This document shows, piece by piece, positions 19,863 to 55,000 of a stretch of DNA of 58,528 nt. Below the pieces are notes generated by a model. The model saw nothing but the letters and a program-made list of their open reading frames with translations. It ran no database searches and was not told the origin of the DNA. Within the stretch, counting starts at the first letter, position 1. Every line of letters begins with the position of its first letter. Origin of the DNA: an uncultured bacterium (GTDB lineage Bacteria; Cyanobacteriota; Vampirovibrionia; Gastranaerophilales; Gastranaerophilaceae); contig CADCNV010000002.1 of the NCBI GenBank assembly GCA_902802825.1, positions 1 to 58,528 on the forward strand, in the 5' to 3' direction. Position numbers and translations under genes: made by a program.

Positions 19863-19930
19863 ACCCTCTACCTATGGGAGAGGGTAGAATTTCTTAACGA
19901 ACTTGGGAGTTTAGAAATTCGGGTGAGGGT
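19863..19930. repeat. CCCTC/GAGGG palindromic repeat between dapA and secD
   Basis: Starts ACCCTCTACCTATGGGAGAG (left hairpin), then has GAATTTCT/AGAAATTC as a second stem and ends GGGTGAGGGT, which complements the ACCCTC start. Relatives are at 40100-40138, 48671-48735 and 54951-55000. It is followed by a small hairpin TTCTGAA-N5-TTCAGAA. Confidence 0.75.
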
Positions 19931-39915: not shown

Positions 39916-40138
39916 TAAATGTAGGTCGGCGTTGCCACGCCGACTTTTTATTGTCATTGCGAGAAAATCTTTGATTTTCGTGGCAATCTCATTGGTTCAA
40001 TGTTGTACGGAATTGAATAATGAGATTATTACGTCGCTTCCGCTCCTCATAATGACATGTTATGGGGTCGGCGTGGCAACGCCGACTTATAATATTCAAC
40101 CCTCACCCAACCCCTCTCCTGATTTCAGGAGAGGGAGT
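39890..40138. repeat. Composite repeat island between genes
   Basis: In order: GTAGGTTGGGTGAAACCCAA with C (39890-39910); GTAGGTCGGCGTTGCCACGC with CGAC (39921-39944); GTCATTGCGAG-type repeat (39952-39995); its inverted, diverged partner ending TCATAATGACAT (40018-40058); GTCGGCGTGGCAACGCCGAC (40067-40086); ACCCTCACCC...CAGGAGAGGGAGT (40100-40138). The two GTCGGCG hairpins bound the CATTGCGAG pair as inverted repeats. Confidence 0.8.
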
Positions 40139-47566: not shown

Positions 47567-49018
47567 ATGAGTGAGATTAAATTTGGGACAGACGGCTGGA
47601 GAGCAATAGTTGGAGAAAATTTTACAAAGGAAAATGTAGAACTTGTAGCTAAGGCAATAGGTAAGTATGTTTTTGATAATTACGGAATTTATAAGCCAAT
47701 AATTATTGGTTATGACCCGCGTAATATGGCTGACGAATTTTCAAAATATTGTGCAGAAATTCTTTCCGAGATTGGTTTTAAAGTCTTGTATAGTGATAAA
47801 GTTGTCCCGACACCTGTTTTGGCATTTAATGCAAAATATCTTGATGCGTGCGCAATTATGTTTACGGCATCACATAATCCGCCGGAATATCTTGGGATAA
47901 AATTTATTCCTGATTATGCAGGGCCTGCAACAAAAGAAATTACTGATGAAATTGTTTCAAACCTCGGATGTGATTTTTCAACCGATGTTAACGGTAAGCT
48001 TATTTATACTGATTTCTCAAATAATTACTTCAAAAAAATAAATGAAATAATAGATTTTGAAAAAATAAAAACAAATTTAAAAAATACTCATATTCTGTTT
48101 GATGGTTTGTATAGTTCAAGTATTGGTTATTTCGATAAATTATTATCTTACCATGATATAAAGTTTGACTCAGTACACATGTTTCACGATACTAATTTTG
48201 GCGGCGGAATGCCTGAGCCAAAACCGCAATATATGCAGGAAGCTATTGATTATGTAAAATTCCATAATAATCCTTTGCCTTTAGGCGGAGTGACAGAAGG
48301 CGGCTATATTGCTTTTGCAAATGACGGTGATGCTGACCGATTCGGGGTGATAAACGAGAATGGGGAATATGTTACCCCAAACGAAATTATGGCAATTTTA
48401 TTATTGCATTTAAAACAGAACAAAGGTTATAACGGATGTTTTGTAAAAACGGTTGCAGGGAGTTTAATGCTTGATATTGCCGCTGAAAAATCGGGAGTTG
48501 AAGTTATTGAAACTCCTGTCGGATTCAAGCATGTCGGCGAGGCGATGAGAAAATATAATCCGATTATCGCAGGTGAAGAATCCGGTGGCTTAAGTATTCA
48601 TGGACATATTCCGGAAAAAGACGGAATCCTTGCTAATCTTTTGATACTTGAAGCAATGGCATATGGTGTGGCTCCCCTCGCCCCATCGGGGAGAGGGAGT
48701 GAGAGTGAGGGGCAAACTCTCACTTCGCTGCAGCAAGGTCTTAAAGATTTTGTCGGCTGCGAATTTATTAATACAAGAGTTGATAAGAAATTGGATAATT
48801 TTGATGAAGTTGCACCAACAATTGAAAAGTTTTCGCAAATGACAGATATTGCCGGCATGGGAATTTATAAAAAAGACAGTAAAGATGGTATAAAATTATA
48901 TTTTGACGATAAAAAAACTTGGATTCTCGTTCGTCCGTCAGGAACCGAACCGCTTTTAAGAATTTATATTGAAAGTGACAGTCAGTATAAAATTGATAAT
49001 ATAAAAATAAATTTGTGA
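47567..49018 (+). CDS. Phosphoglucomutase/phosphomannomutase family protein
   Basis: 483 aa, cytosolic enzyme moving phosphate between C1 and C6 of hexoses. FGTDGWRAIVGENFT at the start, the active serine in FTASHNPPEYLG (Ser102), the metal loop NDGDADRFG (~251-259), the sugar-binding GEESGGLS and the C-terminal phosphate loop RPSGTEPLLRIY are present. Between EAMAYG and LKDFVGCEF there is an additional piece, VAPLAPSGRGSESEGQTLTS plus LQQG, encoded by a repeat inserted in frame at 48671-48735, which explains part of its length. The substrate (glucose, mannose or glucosamine phosphate) cannot be fixed from motifs. Confidence 0.9.
   Translation: MSEIKFGTDGWRAIVGENFTKENVELVAKAIGKYVFDNYGIYKPIIIGYDPRNMADEFSKYCAEILSEIGFKVLYSDKVVPTPVLAFNAKYLDACAIMFTASHNPPEYLGIKFIPDYAGPATKEITDEIVSNLGCDFSTDVNGKLIYTDFSNNYFKKINEIIDFEKIKTNLKNTHILFDGLYSSSIGYFDKLLSYHDIKFDSVHMFHDTNFGGGMPEPKPQYMQEAIDYVKFHNNPLPLGGVTEGGYIAFANDGDADRFGVINENGEYVTPNEIMAILLLHLKQNKGYNGCFVKTVAGSLMLDIAAEKSGVEVIETPVGFKHVGEAMRKYNPIIAGEESGGLSIHGHIPEKDGILANLLILEAMAYGVAPLAPSGRGSESEGQTLTSLQQGLKDFVGCEFINTRVDKKLDNFDEVAPTIEKFSQMTDIAGMGIYKKDSKDGIKLYFDDKKTWILVRPSGTEPLLRIYIESDSQYKIDNIKINL
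48671..48735. repeat. CCCTC/GAGGG-type repeat inside the phosphohexomutase gene
   Basis: CTCCCCTCGCCCCATCGGGG, then GAGAGGGAGTGAGAGTGAGG and ACTCTCACTTCGCTGCAGCA. Nested palindromes (CCCC/GGGG, GAGAGT/ACTCTC) match the intergenic family seen at 19863, 40100 and 54951. Here the element keeps the reading frame open and is much more G+C-rich than its surroundings. Confidence 0.8.
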
Positions 49019-54919: not shown

Positions 54920-55000
54920 GTAGGTTGGGTTTAGATTCCAAAAGAAACCATCCCTCTACCTAAGGCAGAGGGGGCCCGCAGGGCGGGTGAGGGGTCAAGG
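54920..55000. repeat. Two repeat fragments between rpsQ and rplN
   Basis: GTAGGTTGGGTTTAGATTCC (54920-54939), a degenerate GTAGG-family hairpin whose right arm reads AGAAACCATCC. Then CCCTCTACCTAAGGCAGAGG (54952-54971) and GGGCGGGTGAGGGG, a CCCTC/GAGGG family member. Both lie inside a ribosomal operon gap and have no coding role. Confidence 0.7.

Follow-up and report, generated by a model that had tools for sequence, protein, structure and literature searches.

Closest described systems

The closest described counterpart of the insert treated here is the Rickettsia palindromic element (RPE), a set of palindromic repeat families found between genes and also in frame within conserved genes (Ogata et al. 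2000, 2002; PMC10969869, PMC2229807). For one enzyme interrupted by an RPE, guanylate kinase, translation and activity have been demonstrated (PMC10969869, PMC2229807). Conserved genes with palindromes in frame were long deemed a peculiarity of Rickettsia, and REPs were later added for a few other bacteria. The GTAG/CGTC-tagged REPs are palindromes of 20-40 bp that are mostly intergenic, some being located in ORFs, often those of replication or repair genes (PMC3733652). In the var1 gene of yeast mitochondria, recombination carries the filled allele of an in-frame G+C-rich palindrome, the GC cluster (PMC8811140), and the ERIC, Correia and YPAL MITEs, which are non-autonomous, form in-frame fusions with ORFs (PMC2229807). 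A 2024 review considered such protein evolution in other prokaryotes merely conceivable (PMC10969869).

The element in the phosphohexomutase gene of a Gastranaerophilales bacterium behaves like an RPE: it is dispersed, several palindrome families are present with intergenic copies and in-frame copies in conserved genes, and empty orthologues exist. It is not classed as an RPE, from which length and host set it apart; the unit is 36-42 nt in an unrelated rumen lineage, while repeats of the RPE-1 type measure ~105-150 bp and are rickettsial. Unlike an RPE, the insert also appears to have passed between species by homologous recombination. With genic REPs it has in common that the palindromes are short and lie in genes for replication and repair, mfd and priA in this case; however, the repeat carries no terminal GTAG/CGTC tag, its flanks being TGTGGCT and CAAACT, and the RAYT loci that were inspected carry a different, GTAG-tagged repeat. 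The var1 GC clusters are likewise short, G+C-rich, in-frame palindromes of an AT-rich genome that are borne by recombination, but they belong to an organelle, to one ribosomal-protein gene and to within-species crosses, whereas the present case is bacterial, involves many genes and extends between species. As in MITEs, the element is non-autonomous and fuses in frame with ORFs; MITEs are larger and have terminal inverted repeats and target-site duplications, and no duplication is recognisable here, within the limits set by the divergence of the alleles.

The phosphohexomutase gene and its in-frame insert

The window, that is, the whole stretch of 58,528 nt that was analysed, belongs to a metagenome-assembled genome of 1.62 Mb (G000), of which it forms contig C2, and every genome compared with it is likewise a metagenome assembly. 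The ORF at 47567-49018 (+ strand) encodes a phosphohexomutase of 483 amino acids. It was assigned to the PGM/PMM (alpha-D-phosphohexomutase) superfamily by profile matches and predicted fold: all four PGM/PMM Pfam domains score above their cut-offs, and the phosphoserine, metal, sugar and phosphate loops are present. Its score is under every curated equivalog cut-off for GlmM, PGM or PMM; the closest NCBIfam profile, the archaeal-type GlmM TIGR03990, gives 230.7 bits where its cut-off is 439. The catalytic motifs TASHNP, DGDADR, GEESGG and RPSGTEP are intact, as the initial annotation had said, and most of them are invariant alignment columns. An AlphaFold2 model (mean pLDDT 88.7, pTM 0.91) matches the crystal structures of PGM/PMM enzymes, the best being 1tuo. 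The named relatives of the gene belong to Candidatus Gastranaerophilales/Melainabacteria, many of them rumen-derived. One sequence titled Muribaculaceae bacterium (L092, JAMPCZ010000001.1) clusters with Gastranaerophilales, and that record is probably mislabelled.

Within this ORF, which is open throughout, the insert VAPLAPSGRGSESEGQTLTS reads in frame. Orthologues were sought across 59 genomes and those of the same genus were aligned, giving 30 sequences (29 orthologues and the window). Relative to the uninterrupted congeneric orthologues, the net in-frame insertion at this point (site B) is 42 nt or 14 residues, GVAPLAPSGRGSES, at 48665-48706 (+ strand) as aligned. The gain of 20-24 residues estimated in the initial annotation includes flanks that are homologous but substituted. 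Most congeners have the uninterrupted allele EAMAY-EGKSLVQLQ, and the window has EAMAY-GVAPLAPSGRGSES-EGQTLTSLQ. The G+C content of the insert is 0.69, against 0.36 for the gene.

The uninterrupted form, which was expected to emerge from an alignment of homologues, is the allele of most congeners, among them G016, which is the nearest relative (95% amino acid identity). The same insert occurs in diverged form in two further close congeners, G015 and G030. Its presence beyond the lineage would have spoken against an insertion; the loop peptide is confined to G000, G015 and G030 among the 59 genomes searched. In G002 and G004, a different repeat-like insert occupies the identical point. Placement in a loop agrees with the predicted fold, in which pLDDT falls below 50 at residues 375-379 (site B) and at 240-243 (a second site, site A, described below); one further stretch of low confidence, 205-213, has no relation to either insert. 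In the model, site B sits in a predicted disordered loop between two helices, apparently off the active site. Between G000 and G030, 5 of the 14 insert residues differ; upstream of the insert the count is 1 of 42, and downstream it is 4 of 26. Judged from these substitutions, the insert is under weak constraint and evolves faster than its flanks.

The repeat element and its copies

Site B contains a G+C-rich palindromic repeat of 39 nt at 48674-48712 (+ strand), CCCCTCGCCCCATCGGGGAGAGGGAGTGAGAGTGAGGGG, with the structure CCCCTCGCCCC-ATC-GGGGAGAGGG...GTGAGGGG and an RNA hairpin of z = -3.0. The initial view that a repeat of an intergenic family had entered the gene in frame is borne out by a copy in G000 (G000:C15:8205-8228, E 5e-5), located between genes upstream of prmA, a gene named by eye from its sequence. 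A second copy lies in frame in the mfd gene of G015 (23/23 nt, E 8e-7). An ordinary variable loop that is G+C-rich and palindromic by accident might be envisaged, since loop lengths of this enzyme do vary among related species. That reading has practically no probability left: near-identical copies exist within and between genomes, and of 300 random coding 39-mers a single one gave a non-orthologous match at E<=1e-4. Hence, the repeat status of the element is beyond chance.

No Rfam family reached its gathering score with the element, the single match being at chance level. A 37-nt consensus run through nhmmer recovered 5 matches, and fuzzy patterns replaced it for want of sensitivity. The loosest of these was dropped as proof, as it gave 14+66 matches against 5+21 on reversed sequence, and a two-gap pattern recovered one copy only. 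The family pattern is present in 21 of 36 genomes, patchily between congeners, with up to ~38 copies per genome and almost none for the reversed pattern. Outside the genus, G043, of the same order and another family, has ~38 copies of a CCCCTC...GAGGG palindrome, and a Y1 transposase was not found in that genome.

The window itself contains a further G+C-rich palindrome of this type at 40100-40135, and related intergenic palindromes at 19864-19884 (CCCTCTACC-GGGAGAGGG) and 54952-54972 (CCCTCTACC...GCAGAGGG). In a census that covered 1.15 of the 1.62 Mb of G000 and 1.18 of the ~1.9 Mb of G015, elements of this general palindromic kind numbered 16 in the former (9 inside ORFs) and 51 in the latter (13 inside ORFs). 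ORFs cover 87-89% of the sequence fetched, and genic insertions are depleted yet not rare in both genomes. The spacers of a ribosomal protein operon in G015 (G015:C1:208743-211196) are packed with G+C-rich palindromes.

A second insert in the same gene

The initial annotation recognised the insert at site B and overlooked another, apparently older one, at 48260-48304 (+ strand). Ortholog alignment shows at this site A an eroded, repeat-derived insert, FHNNPLPLGGVTEGG, where uninterrupted sequences have SHKN; the net gain is ~10-11 residues. Site A directly precedes the strand that leads to the metal loop DGDADR, the uninterrupted type being SHKN-YVAFANDGD. A nearly intact element is found at site A in G008, with 97.6% identity over 41 nt to a repeat within the mfd gene of G000, and in several species large ORFs encode peptides of its family. 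The site-A insert belongs to a different repeat family from the site-B element. The G+C content of the window copies is 49% at site A and 69% at site B, a drift consistent with site A being the older insertion, whose loop would have become richer in AT as it decayed. How many separate insertions took place at site A is uncertain, the inserts of the species being alike in part only. A third kind of insert at this site, apparently of yet another repeat family, was observed in L071, L072 and also L082 (AGAGGTCAAGAGGTCAAGAGG...CCTTCCCGCCTTCTTGCCC).

Exchange of the filled allele between species

The gene of the window is ~94% identical to that of G016 and 81% to that of G015. In the 78 nt 3' of the insert, identity is 71% to G016 and 96% to G015. 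Informative sites flip sharply across 48709-48778 (permutation p < 1e-4), and the window and G015 have in common a block at 48665-48778 (+ strand) made up of the insert and ~70 nt of flank. In the gene tree, G015 groups with the two carriers of the other insert, G002 and G004; the window groups with G016 and, less firmly, with G030. On the alignment evidence, the identity switch after the insert is best read as short-tract recombination between species. In the simplest history, the insertion would have taken place in the ancestor of the window, G016 and G030 group. The filled tract of ~110 nt, insert plus flank, would then have been transferred to the G015 lineage by homologous recombination, and G016 most likely lost the insert in the same manner, its tract being replaced by an empty allele. 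In G032 (L010), alignment codons 420-450 form another mosaic stretch, 92% identical to the window gene against ~77% elsewhere, and recombination at this gene seems to be frequent.

A mosaic of this kind might also be a repeat-mediated chimera of different species, produced in assembly or binning, as the genomes are metagenome assemblies throughout, repeats favour misassembly and the mosaic block is short. This is very improbable, however: three species, each assembled separately, have the diverged insert with its non-repeat flanks, the ORF is nowhere interrupted and the same pattern is found in many other genes.

In-frame repeats in other genes

It had been assumed that intergenic repeats turned into coding sequence in frame are uncommon; in this lineage they are not, and many housekeeping genes carry them. 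The fetched sequences of G000 and G015 gave 580 reciprocal-best pairs, and in these 42 in-frame indels of 7-45 amino acids lie internally between conserved flanks. Approximately 16 of the 42 are multi-copy repeats, many with strong hairpins, under a loose copy criterion that 15 of 120 random coding segments also reach. According to curated profiles, the interrupted genes include leuS, purB, folC, tsaD, proC, thiL, rsmE, nrdG2, priA and mfd, the mfd of G015 being identified through its reciprocal match to the G000 gene; a tRNA nucleotidyltransferase gene is likewise interrupted. The leuS gene of G015 (L131:10286-12952) is interrupted twice, by 24 and by 41 residues; the first of these inserts is a multi-copy palindrome of the GTCATTGCGAG... 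type. In nrdG2, the same activase loop holds different palindrome families in G000 (L123:10026-10718) and G015 (L166:10533-11333). In mfd, elements at apparently the same loop are differently oriented in G001 and G009 as compared with G015. Some inserts, those in thiL and tsaD, are common to two species.

No out-of-frame repeat insertions were found among shared genes, by means of a detector that recovered 49 of 60 simulated 40-nt frameshifting insertions. At this sensitivity, their absence indicates that the frame is kept by selection, which favours translation of the inserts. It also disfavours an alternative in which the insert is bypassed or excised from the mRNA, as in the GC-cluster regions of Magnusiomyces mitochondria; G+C-rich hairpins in an AT-rich genome do resemble mitochondrial GC clusters (PMC8811140), but bypass would permit any length, and such an explanation is exceedingly unlikely. 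The window element is free of stops in 5 of its 6 frames, so that an insertion with a length divisible by three can survive in a tolerant loop.

An adaptive insert was also considered, with a loop peptide or mRNA hairpin that tunes stability, partner binding or translation rate and is therefore selected. Its persistence in three species, the thiL and tsaD inserts held in common, the stable hairpin and the reuse of the site would fit this proposal. Yet the insert is missing from the closely similar sister species G016, other species fill the same site with different sequences, and peptides of the same kind occur in unrelated enzymes. Its rapid change relative to the flanks and the low confidence of the modelled loop likewise weigh against selection for a function, which we regard as unlikely.

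Mobilisation

Mobilisation by RAYT (Y1 transposase) was rejected as an explanation in view of a weak association and of the loci inspected. RAYT-like genes are present in 8 of the 12 congeners that are rich in repeats and in 2 of the 11 that are poor in them (Fisher p 0.026), and the loci that were read, in G000 (C30), G015, G020, G029 and G035, carry other repeats, of the GTAG type. Two RAYT genes, L232 (G020:C1:3580-3948) and L231 (G035:C10:70785-71156), apparently contain their own GTAG-type REP within the ORF (TTGGGCAAGTATGCCCAAC). No recognisable transposase gene lies beside the palindrome clusters of G015, and no autonomous parent element came to light. A target-site duplication is not recognisable in alignments of filled and empty alleles, whose divergence limits the reading.

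Origin of the inserts and significance

The explanation that we hold to be very probable is that selfish or neutral palindromes are kept only where frame and fold survive, and that the filled allele is exchanged between species. A small non-autonomous repeat of ~36-42 nt, poor in stops in most frames, would have entered the phosphohexomutase gene, by a transposition-like event, in an ancestor common to some of the species of this Gastranaerophilales genus. It would have been retained because its net length is a multiple of three and the loop apparently lies off the active site, and it would be translated as an effectively neutral loop. The same process would account for the in-frame palindromes that many other housekeeping genes carry in these species.

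Here such repeats occur in an uncultured gut and rumen lineage and in at least 10 core genes; empty alleles can be seen alongside decayed copies and exchange between species, all within one genus. The lineage offers a natural experiment on the tolerance of proteins and on their absorption of selfish DNA, and it cautions that repeats can be the source of loop insertions in metagenome proteins. More speculatively, and with considerable doubt on our part, the tolerant loops of essential proteins in rumen Gastranaerophilales may be long-lived harbours that are refilled by several unrelated palindrome families, which would spread mainly via short-tract recombination, like the GC clusters of yeast mitochondria, and not via transposition. 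If so, the core enzymes of rumen Gastranaerophilales would have a steady supply of new loop peptides.
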